Below are positions 58,144 to 64,000 of a stretch of DNA of 64,000 bases, in pieces. Within the stretch, counting starts at the first letter, position 1. Each line of letters opens with the position of its first letter. A model generated the notes under the pieces. It was given only the letters and a program-made list of their open reading frames with translations. It searched no databases and was not told where the DNA came from. The DNA is from Acidobacteriaceae bacterium (GTDB taxonomy: Bacteria; Acidobacteriota; Terriglobia; Terriglobales; Acidobacteriaceae). A program made the translations under genes and the position numbers. The stretch lies in NCBI GenBank assembly GCA_003134995.1, contig PLDC01000005.1:1-64000 (forward strand). The letters run 5' to 3'.

Positions 58144-58386
58144 ATGAAAGAAGTCGCCATCTCCGAATTCAAGGCCAAGTGTCTTTCCCTCCTCGATCAG
58201 GTGCAGAAGACGAAGAAGCCAATCTTGGTGACGCGCTTCGGAAAGCCCATTGCCGAAGTAATACCGGCCTCACCCTTGGCGGGGCCAAGGGACTGGATTG
58301 GCTCGATGAAGGACACGATGAAGATTCTGGGGGACATTGTTTCTCCGGCCAGTGACGAAGATGAGTGGGAGGTGCTGCGCGATTGA
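58144..58386 (+). CDS. Phd/YefM-family antitoxin
   Basis: An 80-residue antitoxin. The N-terminal part MKEVAISEFKAKCLSLLDQV and VTRFGKPIAEVIP are the Phd/YefM DNA-binding fold. The acidic C-terminus (SPASDEDEWEVLRD) would wrap the toxin. It overlaps the PIN toxin gene. Expected to autoregulate the promoter just upstream. Compare the broken relative at 1679-1890. Confidence 0.93.
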   Translation: MKEVAISEFKAKCLSLLDQVQKTKKPILVTRFGKPIAEVIPASPLAGPRDWIGSMKDTMKILGDIVSPASDEDEWEVLRD

Positions 58387-58772
58387 AACTCCTGCTGGAT
58401 ACGCACATCTGGCTCTGGAGCCTGCATGACACCAAACGCTTGGGGAAAAGAGTCTCACACGAATTGAAGAATCCTGAGAACGAACTCTGGCTTTCTCCAA
58501 TCAGCACTTGGGAAGCGCTGCTCTTGAACGCCAAAGGTCGAATTAGCCTGCCCGAAGATATCGGGGCCTGGGTCGCCGCAGCCACAGGTCCTCTCCGGGA
58601 AGCTCCGCTGACGCATGAGATCGCACTCGCATCTCGCCTCTTGAAGCTTCCTCACAACGATCCTGCGGACCGTTTTCTGGCCGCAACGGCTCAACTTCTG
58701 CGCTTAACCCTTGTAACGGGAGACACCAGATTACTCGGTTTGGGAGATATATCTACCCTATCCAACCTCTGA
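58383..58772 (+). CDS. PIN-domain ribonuclease toxin (VapC-like)
   Basis: A 129-residue toxin. PIN acidic residues are D6 (LLDTHIWLW), E44 (SPISTWEAL), D96 (NDPADRFL) and D114 (LVTGDTRLL), the set that binds Mg for RNA cleavage. Start TTG 58383 overlaps the antitoxin's TGA by three bases (58384-58386); GTG 58365 would overlap it by 22. Coupled translation keeps the antitoxin in excess. The likely RNA target is tRNA or rRNA, as for other VapC enzymes, but it is not known. Confidence 0.93.
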   Translation: MKLLLDTHIWLWSLHDTKRLGKRVSHELKNPENELWLSPISTWEALLLNAKGRISLPEDIGAWVAAATGPLREAPLTHEIALASRLLKLPHNDPADRFLAATAQLLRLTLVTGDTRLLGLGDISTLSNL

Positions 58773-60110: not shown

Positions 60111-60207
60111 AAGGTTCTCGGATGATATCTGGCGCAGCAACAAGCCGCAAATAAGCGACACTGCAATCCGAAATCGATTTCCGTCCGAAACGCGGTGTCA
60201 TCCTGGA

Positions 60208-60228
60208 GGCGGGCGCTTTTTGCCCGCC
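60208..60228. repeat. Short GC hairpin
   Basis: GGCGGGC, seven-base loop, GCCCGCC. No adjoining T-run beyond the loop, so termination is uncertain. Confidence 0.65.
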
Positions 60229-60240
60229 GAAGGATCCGGG

Positions 60241-60299
60241 CGAGCCGCGCGATCATTCTCGCGTTTCTTGCGAGAATGCAAAATCGCGCGTTTGGCTCG
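60241..60299. repeat. Long imperfect hairpin of the shared-loop family
   Basis: Outer CGAGCC with GGCTCG, then CGCGAT with ATCGCG, then ATTCTCGC with GCGAGAAT, around loop GTTTCTT. Read on the other strand the loop is AAGAAAC between CGC and GCG, close to AAAGAAC at 14078-14084. Confidence 0.75.
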
Positions 60300-60487
60300 C
60301 TTCCCTATCGAATTCGGCCACCGCCTAAAATAAATTCGTCCTAAGATTCTCGCCCGACCCAACATTCCCAAATCTGCCAACCCCAAAAAATCCATCTTCA
60401 ATTTCAGTTTCACGACCTCTTGCCGGGTGTACAATTTTTTTAGCAAGCACTGGGTTGCGTCACTTTCGTCAAACACCCGAGGTGCTA

Positions 60488-61543
60488 ATGAACGTTCACA
60501 TCAGTTACCGCCTTCATAAAACTCCCGCCGTAGAGAAAGACCTTCAACATCAAGTCGAAAAACTGCGAACACGCCTGCAAGTCTTTCGCCCCGAACTCAT
60601 CCACCTCAAAGGCATGGTCGAAGAGGTCTCTCCGCGCGAAGGCATAAGCGTCTCGCTCAACCTGCGCCTGCCCTCCGGACAAATGGCCGTCCAGGCCAAA
60701 GCCCCAACCGCCGCAGCCGCCGTAAAAACCGCGTTCGAAGATCTGCTGCAGCAACTCAATAAACACAAAGCCCTGCTGCGCTCCAGCCACAAGTGGACGC
60801 GCCGCCAAAAAGACACCCCCGCCCGCCGCAATTCCTCCGTGCCCTTCGAACAGACGCTGGCCGCAGTCTTCCCGGCAACGGTTTCGTCCGACGATGTTCG
60901 CTCCTACGTCAACGTGAATCTTTCCCGCCTCGAGCGTTTCGTCGAACGCGAAATCTATTTTCGCGAAGCCTCCGATTTCATCGCCCCTGATTCCATCACC
61001 AAAGAAGAAGTCATCGACGAAACCATCGCCGCCGCTCTAGGTGATGATACGGATGGCATCAAAGAAAAACCTGAGCGCCTCGCCCTCGAACCCTGGCTCT
61101 ACCGCTTAGCCACGCGCGCCCTCGATGAACTTTCGCGCCCCGATGGCACCAACGGCGGCGCTGTGCACCTCGAAGACTCCGCTCGCAAGCAAAACGTCAA
61201 GGCCAGCGATGAGCCTGAACTGCAATTCCATCAGCCCGACGAAGCCATCACCGAAGAAACCATCATCGCCGACGGCCGCATCGCCACGCCCGAACAGATC
61301 GTCGGCTCCGACGAAATGATGCGCCTGATCGCCTCCGCTCTTCGCGACCTGAGCCCGCCGCAGCGCGAAGCTTTCATCCTCCACGCCATCGAAGGTTTCG
61401 GCGTCGAAGAAATCTCCGCCATCACCGGCACCACGGCCGAAACGGTGTCGATCTCCATCTCTGCCGCCCGCGATCACCTGCGCAAATCGCCCAGCATCGC
61501 CCATCAATTCAAGGGACGACTTGCGCCCACCGGAACCGCGTAA
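60488..61543 (+). CDS. HPF/RaiA ribosome-hibernation domain fused to sigma-factor-like regions
   Basis: A 351-residue protein. Residues 1-105 match the HPF/RaiA (S30AE) fold that occupies the small-subunit decoding channel: MNVHISYRLHKTPAVEKDLQ, VSLNLRLPSGQMAVQ, AFEDLLQQLNKHK. From about 136 to 216 the sequence resembles ECF sigma region 2 (LERFVEREI ... VIDETIAAAL ... LEPWLYRLATRALDELSR). Residues 272-336 resemble sigma region 4 with a helix-turn-helix (LRDLSPPQREAFILHAIEGF, AETVSISISAARDHL). An acidic linker joins the halves. ATG 60488 has GAGG five bases upstream. It forms an operon with the next gene. It could couple hibernation to transcription or use the sigma-like part only as a binding module. 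Confidence 0.8.
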   Translation: MNVHISYRLHKTPAVEKDLQHQVEKLRTRLQVFRPELIHLKGMVEEVSPREGISVSLNLRLPSGQMAVQAKAPTAAAAVKTAFEDLLQQLNKHKALLRSSHKWTRRQKDTPARRNSSVPFEQTLAAVFPATVSSDDVRSYVNVNLSRLERFVEREIYFREASDFIAPDSITKEEVIDETIAAALGDDTDGIKEKPERLALEPWLYRLATRALDELSRPDGTNGGAVHLEDSARKQNVKASDEPELQFHQPDEAITEETIIADGRIATPEQIVGSDEMMRLIASALRDLSPPQREAFILHAIEGFGVEEISAITGTTAETVSISISAARDHLRKSPSIAHQFKGRLAPTGTA

Positions 61544-61591
61544 ATCCACTTCCAACAAACGACAGCCGCGACCAAGAAAGGATCACCGCGA

Positions 61592-62899
61592 ATGATTACT
61601 CGGGAACAGATTCACGAACTAGCCCAATTCGAAGATCAGCCCGGCTGCGCTCTAAGTTTCTATTTTCAGCCCGCGGCCCCGCGCAACAAAGCCCACAAGG
61701 AAGAAGCCATCCTCACCAAAGATCTGGCGCGCGAAGCCTTGCGCCAGTTGGAAAGCAACGGCAATGGCGGGCTCGCGAACGGCCGAGATACGAATAAAGA
61801 GAAGAATAAAGATCAGAATAAGGAAAAGATCGAGTCAGCCCGCGCCGATCTCGACCGCATCCTGCGCCTCTCGCAAGAACTGCGCGCGCCCGGCAACGGC
61901 ACGCACGCCAAGGCCATCTTCGCCTGCTCGGCGCAAGGTTTCTGGCGCGAGTACGACCTGCCCGCGCAACTCACCGGCACGCAGCTCGTGGTGAATCGCC
62001 GTTTCCATCTAAAGCCCCTCGCCCAGTTGCTCGGAGCATTTCCCCGCCTCGGCATCGTACTGCTCGACCGCCATCGCGCGCGCCTGTTCGATCTCCGCCT
62101 CGGCGAACTCAGCGAGCGCATGGATTTCGTTCATCCCCTTACCCGCCGCGGCCGCGGCGCTGGCTTCGGAGCCTACGATGCCGGCCACGCCGAGCGCCGC
62201 GTCGCCGACGACGCCCTCCATCATTTCAAGTTCATCGCCCAGTTCATCAAAGACTCGTTGGAAAAAAACATGTTCGAGAAGTGGATCATCGGCTGCCAGG
62301 ATGTTCACTGGTCGCAGTTCGAAGCTCAACTGCATTCCTATGCGAAGCAAAAACTACTGGGCCGCTTTAATGCCGAAATAGCTCACGTGAGTAATGAAGA
62401 AGTTCGCTCGCAAGCCGAAAAGATTTTCGCCGACTCGCAACAGCACCGCTGCCAGGAGGTCGTCAGCGAGACCATCAACCAGGCCCGCCACCATGCCCGC
62501 GGAGTCACCGGATTGCGCCGCGTCCTCAACTCCCTCGAGTTAGGCGAAGTGCAAACCCTGCTCATCGGCCAGAACTATCACGCTCAGGCCGTCGAGTGCG
62601 CCGGCTGCGGCCACCTTGACGCCCACCTCGTTAGCCTCTGTCCAGTTTGTAGCCGCGAGACTCGCGAGGTCGTCGACGTTTCCGAAGCCATCCTGCCCTG
62701 GGTAATCCGCCACGACATCGAACTGTTCTACGTCAAAGATGATCCCGAGTTCGACAAAGTAGGCAACATCGCCGCGCTGTTACGCTTCCGCTCCGAACAA
62801 AACAAAAACGTGCGCTCCATCACCGAGATCCCAGCGCACCCATCTCTAGGTCGCCAACCAGGATTAGTAGGCCGCTACCGAGGCGCAGCCATCGGCTGA
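61592..62899 (+). CDS. eRF1/Pelota-like bacterial release-factor-family protein
   Basis: A 435-residue protein with an eRF1-like domain order. Residues 1-150 would be domain 1, interrupted by a Lys/Asn/Glu-rich insert (about 66-80). About 152-285 resembles domain 2, with LGIVLLDRHRARLFDLRLGE and a glycine-rich loop RRGRGAGFGAYDAGHAERR where GGQ lies in classical factors; GGQ itself is absent. About 286-405 resembles domain 3: LGEVQTLLIGQNY, a zinc ribbon (C336, C339, C350, C353) and VGNIAALLRFR, like the GGIAAILRY end of eRF1. It fits the bacterial families (baeRF/VLRF1-related) proposed for ribosome rescue. It starts 48 bases after the HPF fusion gene. Confidence 0.72.
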   Translation: MITREQIHELAQFEDQPGCALSFYFQPAAPRNKAHKEEAILTKDLAREALRQLESNGNGGLANGRDTNKEKNKDQNKEKIESARADLDRILRLSQELRAPGNGTHAKAIFACSAQGFWREYDLPAQLTGTQLVVNRRFHLKPLAQLLGAFPRLGIVLLDRHRARLFDLRLGELSERMDFVHPLTRRGRGAGFGAYDAGHAERRVADDALHHFKFIAQFIKDSLEKNMFEKWIIGCQDVHWSQFEAQLHSYAKQKLLGRFNAEIAHVSNEEVRSQAEKIFADSQQHRCQEVVSETINQARHHARGVTGLRRVLNSLELGEVQTLLIGQNYHAQAVECAGCGHLDAHLVSLCPVCSRETREVVDVSEAILPWVIRHDIELFYVKDDPEFDKVGNIAALLRFRSEQNKNVRSITEIPAHPSLGRQPGLVGRYRGAAIG

Positions 62900-62960
62900 A
62901 TTCCAATCCCCTCAGAGGTTGGGATTTAGCTGAGCGCGCGCAAACACAAAAATGGGGTGC

Positions 62961-62991
62961 CCCATTTCTCGCGTCCTTTGCGAGAAGTGGG
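62961..62991. repeat. Hairpin of the shared-loop family
   Basis: CCCATTTCTCGC, loop GTCCTTT, GCGAGAAGTGGG (one G-T pair). On the other strand the loop reads AAAGGAC between CGC and GCG. It lies 62 bases after the release-factor-like gene and is preceded by GGGGTGCCCC. Confidence 0.75.
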
Positions 62992-63160
62992 AACCACGAA
63001 CGCCTGCAGCAAAGGTCTCCAAAGTCGAGGCGCCACTACAAGTGTAGAGCGGAGACTCATATCCGGTGCTTTTGACTTTGATCCCAACCGTGCCGCCAGC
63101 ACAACCGTGGAAAGATCGGCACTTCAGCGCCGCGTAAAGCTCCAAAAACTCAAACGGGCA

Positions 63161-64000
63161 TCAGCCCCAGCGCGGCAGTTCATCCAAACCAATCCCCAGT
63201 GCAATCTTCCCAATCACTTCATGCGTAAGAAACGCATTCGCCGGATGAATCCTTCCCAAGCGCGCATCGCGTAACAAACGCTCGTATCCCGCCGACCGAA
63301 AAATTCCATGCCCGCCAGCCACATCAAGCCCAAGATCCACCACCCGCCACGACGCTTCCACCGCCCGATATTTCGCCGCGAAAATCTTCACCGCCCACTC
63401 GGCGCCGTAATCCACGCCCTTCGACCAGTCCTTAGCAATGCGATCAAGATGCGGCCCGATCGATTCCAACTCAATCACCATCTCCGCAACCGCGTGCTGA
63501 ATCTCCGGATGGTAAGCCATCGACCGCGTCAGCGCGAGCGAACTCTTGCTTTTCACAGAAGCAATGCTCTTATCCAGCGCCCGCTTGGCCAGCCCGTAAT
63601 AAACATTCGCAAACCCCAACAGCGCCCACGCAAACATCGAGAGAACATACCCATCGATTCCAGCACCCCCGGCCGGAACGATCCGCGCAACGTACCGGTC
63701 CGGAATGAAAACGTTCTCGAGGACCGTGTCATCGCTGCGCGTAGCGCGCATGCCGAGAACGTCCCAGGTTTCCTTAATGGTGTACCCGCTGCTGTCGCGC
63801 GGCATAAACGCGTGCACAATCTTCGGATGGCTGGGATCGCTCGTATCCATTCCATGCATGCCGAAACGCGTCCAGACCGGAGTCAGGCTTCCAAACTGTT
63901 TGCGGCCGGTAAAGCGATAGCCGCCATCCACCCGTTCCGCCTTCGTAGTAGAAAGAAGCACGGGAAGATCGTTGCCGCTCTCCGCGTGACCGGCTGCAAA
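63161..64000 (-). CDS. Acyl-CoA dehydrogenase-like protein, 5' end outside window
   Basis: The C-terminal 279 residues of an acyl-CoA dehydrogenase/flavin monooxygenase-type protein; the frame runs to the window edge without a start. The beta-domain contains TGRKQFGSLTPVW, a typical FAD-adjacent strand, and GMRATRSDDTVLENVFIPD, the standard end of the middle domain. The C-terminal helical bundle ends with GLDVAGGHGIFRSAGYERLLRDAR, the conserved dimer/FAD motif. The substrate cannot be told. There is no operon partner inside the window. The stop lies 170 bases from the shared-loop hairpin. Confidence 0.9.
   Translation of the reverse strand, partial: FAAGHAESGNDLPVLLSTTKAERVDGGYRFTGRKQFGSLTPVWTRFGMHGMDTSDPSHPKIVHAFMPRDSSGYTIKETWDVLGMRATRSDDTVLENVFIPDRYVARIVPAGGAGIDGYVLSMFAWALLGFANVYYGLAKRALDKSIASVKSKSSLALTRSMAYHPEIQHAVAEMVIELESIGPHLDRIAKDWSKGVDYGAEWAVKIFAAKYRAVEASWRVVDLGLDVAGGHGIFRSAGYERLLRDARLGRIHPANAFLTHEVIGKIALGIGLDELPRWG

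Follow-up and report, generated by a model that had tools for sequence, protein, structure and literature searches.

What does a ribosome hibernation domain do when it is joined to a sigma-like half and encoded next to a relative of release factors? Two genes in the window (the whole 64,000-nt stretch of acidobacterial DNA analyzed here) raise this question. An earlier note, made from the sequence alone, had described them as an HPF-sigma fusion followed, after 48 bases, by an eRF1-like gene. This observation is confirmed: the Pfam models Ribosomal_S30AE, Sigma70_r4_2, and baeRF_family10 are all matched above their cutoffs, and the predicted folds agree. The features of the locus are listed in Table 1.

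Table 1. Features of the gene pair, with positions in the window and the basis of each assignment.
Feature	Position	Strand	Basis
Gene 1, HPF/RaiA (S30AE) plus degenerate ECF-sigma-like half, 351 aa	60488..61543	+	ORF, Pfam, NCBIfam, predicted fold
HPF (S30AE) domain, residues 1-109, beta-alpha-beta3-alpha fold	60488..60814	+	Pfam, AlphaFold model, Foldseek
Sigma2-like helices, residues 134-216; Asp177 at the usual region-2.2 Gln position	60887..61135	+	Model, alignment
Conserved acidic linker segment, residues 243-264, QPDE motif at 249-252	61214..61279	+	Alignment
Sigma4-like domain, residues 265-341; usual basic residues at 323 and 326 absent from the recognition helix	61280..61510	+	Pfam, model, alignment
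Intergenic stretch, 48 bases	61544..61591	+	Sequence; spacing across adjacent pairs
Gene 2, baeRF family 10/Balon-like three-domain aeRF1 homologue, 435 aa	61592..62899	+	ORF, Pfam, NCBIfam, predicted fold
GGQ-loop position, residues 183-203, no GGQ	62138..62200	+	Alignment of 32
Zinc-ribbon-type C336, C339, C350, C353, C-terminal (Pelota-type) domain	62597..62650	+	Alignment of 32

As the start of gene 1, the ATG at 60488 is preferred over an in-frame TTG at 60455 because AGGTG is located just 5′ of the ATG. A promoter and terminator scan of 60150-63200, weakly informative for this organism, detected neither a terminator-like site on the + strand (hence none between the two genes) nor a sigma-70-type promoter-like site. 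Just 5′ of the gene 2 start codon, at 61580-61587 and beside AAAGGA, the window reads GGATCACC, the same letters as at the 16S rRNA 3′ end; this is probably a coincidence. Elsewhere in the window (58144-58772), a Phd-type antitoxin ORF overlaps a VapC-type PIN ORF, as judged by eye.

To estimate how widespread the fusion and the pair are, we counted them in several genome samples; the counts are lower bounds, since scoring in many genomes covered just a portion of the candidates from the first look. Among 150 genomes of the family sample, the fusion was detected in at least 79 (partial matches included), gene 2-type proteins in at least 71, and both in at least 63. In 61 of the 79 fusion-bearing genomes, the two genes are direct neighbors on the same strand, and in 58 of these 61 pairs 19 to 78 bases separate the matched stretches. 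The pair is thus conserved in related genomes, whereas an unconserved pair would have refuted the earlier note by its own terms, and it is not a product of chance. A chance fusion or an assembly error is likewise ruled out by the presence of the fusion in 79 of 150 genomes. The other 18 fusion-bearing genomes lack an adjacent gene 2; the surroundings of seven of these unpaired fusions were read, and gene 2 was not found there. Eight family genomes contain gene 2 and no fusion. Six of them hold only a more distant kind (E values of 1e-41 to 1e-64), and in the other two, 2 and 212 bases of contig are left upstream of the gene.

A single-sequence search with gene 1 in the phylum sample yielded matches in 187 of 297 genomes (E ≤ 0.001), many of them to sigma4 only. 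When matches spanning both halves were counted, near-full-length fusions were present in at least 19 genomes, and one more genome contained a contig-cut copy. HPF-only relatives were found in two genomes of this sample. Genes of ~100 aa at L186:3854-4159 and L187:4367-4669 encode the HPF type of the fusion with no sigma half; at L186, a SpoU-type methylase gene comes next, on the opposite strand (by eye).

A search of a species-genome collection with one sigma4 peptide pattern retrieved 55 loci, of which 52 belong to this protein family and are acidobacterial by record title (some are contig-cut, and one has only the sigma part in the reading frame); three of the 55 are sigma-only matches and were not counted as fusions. 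Gene 2 directly follows the fusion in 39 of 44 window-type loci, which were grouped by hand. In two of the five unpaired ones, the contig continues for 0 and 145 bases past the fusion; the remaining three are followed by 316, 685, and ~4,900 bases without a match. Gene 2 was not found in 14 more distant acidobacterial loci, some of which are incomplete; four of these genomes carry a gene 2 relative elsewhere, some distant gene 2 matches being listed with in-frame stops. Downstream of seven of the 14 distant loci is an aminotransferase gene (by eye, with two loci partly legible; by Pfam for one), and five of these seven also have a SpoU-type methylase gene further downstream (by eye).

The fusion also turns up in samples of two other phyla; bin contamination may account for some copies, above all for the single full pseudomonadote one. 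The alphaproteobacterial-record phylum sample (299 pseudomonadote genomes) contains at least one full fusion, whose likely ATG follows the end of a same-strand Clp-type ATPase gene by ~77 bases, as well as a copy cut near a contig end and a stand-alone sigma half. At least nine of 199 genomes in the planctomycete-record phylum sample have matches at E ≤ 1e-18: six extend from HPF as far as sigma4, two reach no further than sigma2, and the ninth is broken or gapped. Two planctomycete-sample proteins, at L200:4859-5788 and L202:5464-6315, have HPF and sigma2-like parts and no sigma4 match. Gene 2 was not found in the 12 fusion loci fetched from these two phyla. Since no neighboring gene 2 was found for 18 of 79 fusions in the family sample, for the 14 distant acidobacterial loci, or for these 12 loci, the fusion does not need gene 2.

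The N-terminal half of the gene 1 product is matched by Ribosomal_S30AE at residues 9-95 (28.7 bits, cutoff 23.7), and S30AE was matched at E ≤ 0.01 in 18 of 19 fusion members. This half is basic, with a pI of 10.3 and a net charge of +8 over residues 1-105. In the AlphaFold model (mean pLDDT 74), residues 1-109 form the HPF fold, three sigma2-like helices fall between residues 134 and 216, and sigma4 helices are seen from 268 onward; confidence is low at 102-129 and 220-249, and the relative placement of the domains is unreliable (pTM 0.32). In the Foldseek search, the first 18 rows are HPF/YfiA-type proteins, as judged from titles or chains, and include the RaiA-type chain found in the Balon-RaiA ribosome 8rd8; from row 19 ECF sigma factors appear, interspersed with further HPFs. 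The S30AE_C dimerization domain is absent from the Pfam domain list of gene 1. The same genome encodes a separate long HPF (S30AE plus S30AE_C) next to a sigma-54 gene; the fusion is therefore a second, different HPF.

The C-terminal half has the full sigma2-sigma4 layout. Sigma70_r4_2 (PF08281) matches residues 280-331 with 42 bits (cutoff 25.7), the NCBIfam sigma70-ECF superfamily model (TIGR02937) matches residues 166-333 with 48 bits (cutoff 42.9), and E. coli sigma-E aligns with gene 1 in both sigma regions, weakly in region 2. Together with the ECF sigma structures among the Foldseek matches, these results are what would be expected if the C-terminal half were a working, although unusual, ECF sigma factor whose availability is tied by the HPF half to ribosomes, the sigma being freed when ribosomes are busy and held when they are idle. 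The residues tell against this reading. We compared 49 distinct acidobacterial fusions with 29 control proteins matching sigma-70 region 4, 19 of them from this genome (out of 47 matches) and 10 from the phylum search; some controls are long or divergent, and the denominators include one whose region 2 is misaligned. Fusions of the other phyla were inspected by eye and are not part of these counts. Fisher tests on the counts treat related sequences as independent and serve as a guide only. Gln at position 177 in region 2.2, a core polymerase contact, occurs in 0 of 49 fusions versus 25 of 29 controls, the position being Asp in 47 of 49 fusions. Asn at 210 is found in 2 of 49 fusions and 25 of 29 controls. 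In the recognition helix, where basic residues contact DNA (−35), Lys or Arg is present at position 323 in none of the 49 fusions versus 19 of 29 controls and at position 326 in 4 of 49 versus 20 of 29. Position 321 is not clearly lost, with a basic residue in 20 of 49 fusions and 15 of 29 controls (Ser in the window protein), a point in favor of a working sigma. An acidic residue is found at position 318 in 39 of 49 fusions versus 1 of 29 controls, and the mean sigma4 charge is −4.6 in fusions versus +0.1 in controls. The sigma half of the window protein has a net charge of −17, and Pfam Sigma70_r2 was matched in 0 of 19 fusion members (E ≤ 0.01).

We consider a working sigma factor improbable and reject the plain ECF sigma reading on the strength of these residue counts. 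The earlier note saw a possible transcription link in the sigma half; as a working link it is doubtful, with the expected core, −10, and −35 contact residues mostly gone. Since the sigma fold is retained and most sigma-specific contacts are lost, we refer to this half as a pseudo-sigma. It is probably a protein-binding module that replaces the HPF dimerization domain.

Stand-alone pseudo-sigma relatives without HPF exist in 4 of 150 family genomes (L182:962-1753, L183:4644-5450, L184:4977-5801, and L185:478-1575). In these, Asp replaces the region-2.2 Gln (by eye), and dnaK is located upstream on the same strand in all four loci (by Pfam for one, by eye for the others). Another stand-alone pseudo-sigma, at L196:1619-2251 in a pseudomonadote-sample genome, contains a WYQPDE segment. 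Two ordinary-looking ECF sigma factors of the same family (L024 and L026) have LTLEDLLPS before sigma4, resembling the fusion linker, and are a possible source of the sigma half.

Could the sigma fold be just a structural or dimerizing tail that stabilizes HPF on the 30S subunit or makes 100S dimers, with no role in transcription? It occupies the place of S30AE_C in long HPFs, and the genome's separate HPF retains S30AE_C. The sigma half is conserved despite its lost contacts. Among 32 window-type sequences, mean identity is 0.63 in the HPF half, 0.55 in the sigma2 and sigma4 regions, and 0.59 for the QPDE segment, compared to 0.32 in the linker. Of 50 distinct acidobacterial fusions, 46 retain QPD[DE]; this points to a specific partner and is not what a mere tail would predict. 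The same holds for the sigma4 profile, to which proteins in samples of three phyla still match. By eye, QPDE is also present in pseudomonadote copies and is not visible in planctomycete ones; the motif is therefore not needed in all fusions, a result that is again compatible with a tail. Overall, we give the structural reading somewhat less than an even chance.

If the pseudo-sigma does have a partner, one candidate is an anti-sigma factor: the fold would act as a sigma mimic, and ribosome occupancy by the HPF domain would switch a stress regulon. A model for such mimicry is provided by PhyR, in which a sigma4-type fold serves outside promoter recognition and which binds NepR. The Pfam PhyR_sigma-like model scores above its cutoff in the window protein (28.7 versus 27) and is matched at E ≤ 0.01 in 18 of 19 fusion members; this match is weakly specific, however, because the PhyR and general sigma4 models overlap. 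The position of one pseudomonadote-sample fusion directly downstream of a Clp-type ATPase gene and of the stand-alone relatives after dnaK is consistent with a stress connection of this kind, but no anti-sigma gene was recognized beside the fusions (by eye; gene listings are incomplete for some loci). We regard sigma mimicry as unlikely.

Gene 2 scores 69.1 bits against baeRF_family10 (PF18854; cutoff 27.1). Its scores against named hibernation factor equivalogs in NCBIfam (48.7 of 480, 35.8 of 330, and 34.1 of 320) are all far below the cutoffs, so it is a distant relative of these factors. The predicted structure (pLDDT 84, pTM 0.76) has the three-domain aeRF1 fold, whose absence would, according to the earlier note, have refuted its proposal. 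The best fold matches are Msmeg1130/Balon structures 8v9l (E 1.6e-20, TM 0.83 by target length) and 8v9j (4.8e-20, 0.84), followed by aRF1/eRF1. No close paralogue of gene 2 was found in the genome, the search returning one fragment at E 0.59.

Ribosome rescue or peptide release rather than hibernation would be the function of gene 2 if its similarity to aRF1 were taken at face value: among solved structures, its sequence profile gives aRF1 (4af1; E 1.4e-9) and Pelota (8.5e-9) as top matches, ahead of Rv2629 (third, 2e-8), MSMEG_1130 (fourth, 1.1e-7), and Psychrobacter Balon (0.006). The score against the aRF1 model TIGR03676 is 31.3 bits, with a cutoff of 234.7. In addition, baeRF family 10 is listed among the few baeRF families with a well-conserved active-type glutamine (Burroughs and Aravind, PMC6514570). 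In the alignment of 32 gene 2 homologues, residue 201 is a glutamine in 7 sequences and a glutamate in 24, GGQ is present in none of the 32, and NIKS is present in none either. Since GGQ is missing, peptide release is unlikely, and rescue by hydrolysis was rejected on this count. In the loop, G191, Y195, G198, and R202 are invariant in all 32 homologues, as are cysteines C336, C339, C350, and C353. With Balon as the best fold match, a rescue or release factor is a very improbable reading of gene 2. The ribosome-related theme proposed for the pair holds in its hibernation part, which is the best reading, and fails for rescue by peptide release.

The gene pair is thus best explained as a two-gene ribosome hibernation unit consisting of an HPF fusion with a putatively dead sigma half and a Balon-like protein, an explanation that we hold to be probable. 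Protein 1 would bind idle ribosomes, its HPF/RaiA domain lying in the 30S decoding groove, and protein 2, a putative catalytically dead relative of aeRF1 of the Balon type, would enter the A site. Together they would close the ribosome in the manner of Psychrobacter RaiA and Balon. The C-terminal half of protein 1, in the place of the HPF dimerization domain, would have a sigma fold without promoter recognition and would probably serve as an acidic protein-binding module, presumably exposed or hidden depending on ribosome binding. A further step, in which the number of idle ribosomes determines how much pseudo-sigma is available for binding RNA polymerase or an anti-sigma factor, seems rather unlikely to us. 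If true, hibernation would directly gate a transcription program, with a Balon-like partner supplied by the same operon, and the fusion would define a new type of ribosome-to-transcription switch that has relatives in samples of three phyla.

The idea of a single system is supported in part and, as first stated, is not new. According to PMC10901736, Balon and RaiA occur together in a single complex with the ribosome, Balon genes most often adjoin raiA, and “alternative sigma70 factors” are also named among their neighbors. PDB entry 8rd8 is titled as a Balon-RaiA ribosome. HPF-baeRF gene neighborhoods are reported in PMC6514570. HPF-baeRF and RaiA-Balon neighborhoods are already known, and the fusion is the new part as far as the literature searched goes. 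Some of the alternative sigma70 factors beside Balon genes may be the HPF-sigma fusion, named by its sigma half. A “sigma-70 factor” annotated beside a Balon-type gene may be a hibernation factor, which calls for caution. No description of an HPF-sigma fusion was found in the open-access literature searched, judged by titles and abstract openings, where other wordings may exist. HPF fused to a sigma fold thus appears to be undescribed. The fusion is shared by several acidobacterial families and was met again in the samples of two further phyla. It provides a concrete protein for probing a possible physical coupling of ribosome idling and transcription control.

Among known systems, long HPF and RaiA share with gene 1 the N-terminal S30AE domain and its fold; long HPF has S30AE_C where gene 1 has the sigma-like half. 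ECF sigma factors of the sigma-E type share the sigma2 and sigma4 layout, but most of their expected core and DNA contact residues are missing in gene 1, which is, moreover, fused to HPF. The sigma-like domain of PhyR has a Pfam match in gene 1, which differs from PhyR in having no receiver domain in its Pfam list, in being HPF-fused, and in having no NepR-like partner that we could see. Gene 2 is above the Pfam cutoff for baeRF family 10, for which an HPF neighborhood is likewise reported (Burroughs and Aravind 2019); the passages considered here mention no sigma domain on the HPF partner, and gene 2 differs from the family as described there in lacking a well-conserved Gln. Another close counterpart is Balon (Psychrobacter Balon, Msmeg1130, and Rv2629), which has, like gene 2, the aeRF1 fold without GGQ and NIKS and a gene adjoining one of the HPF/RaiA type. 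Msmeg1130 is 15% identical to gene 2 in the fold alignment, and, compared to Balon, gene 2 is distinguished by four invariant zinc-ribbon-type cysteines and by an HPF partner that bears a sigma-like half.
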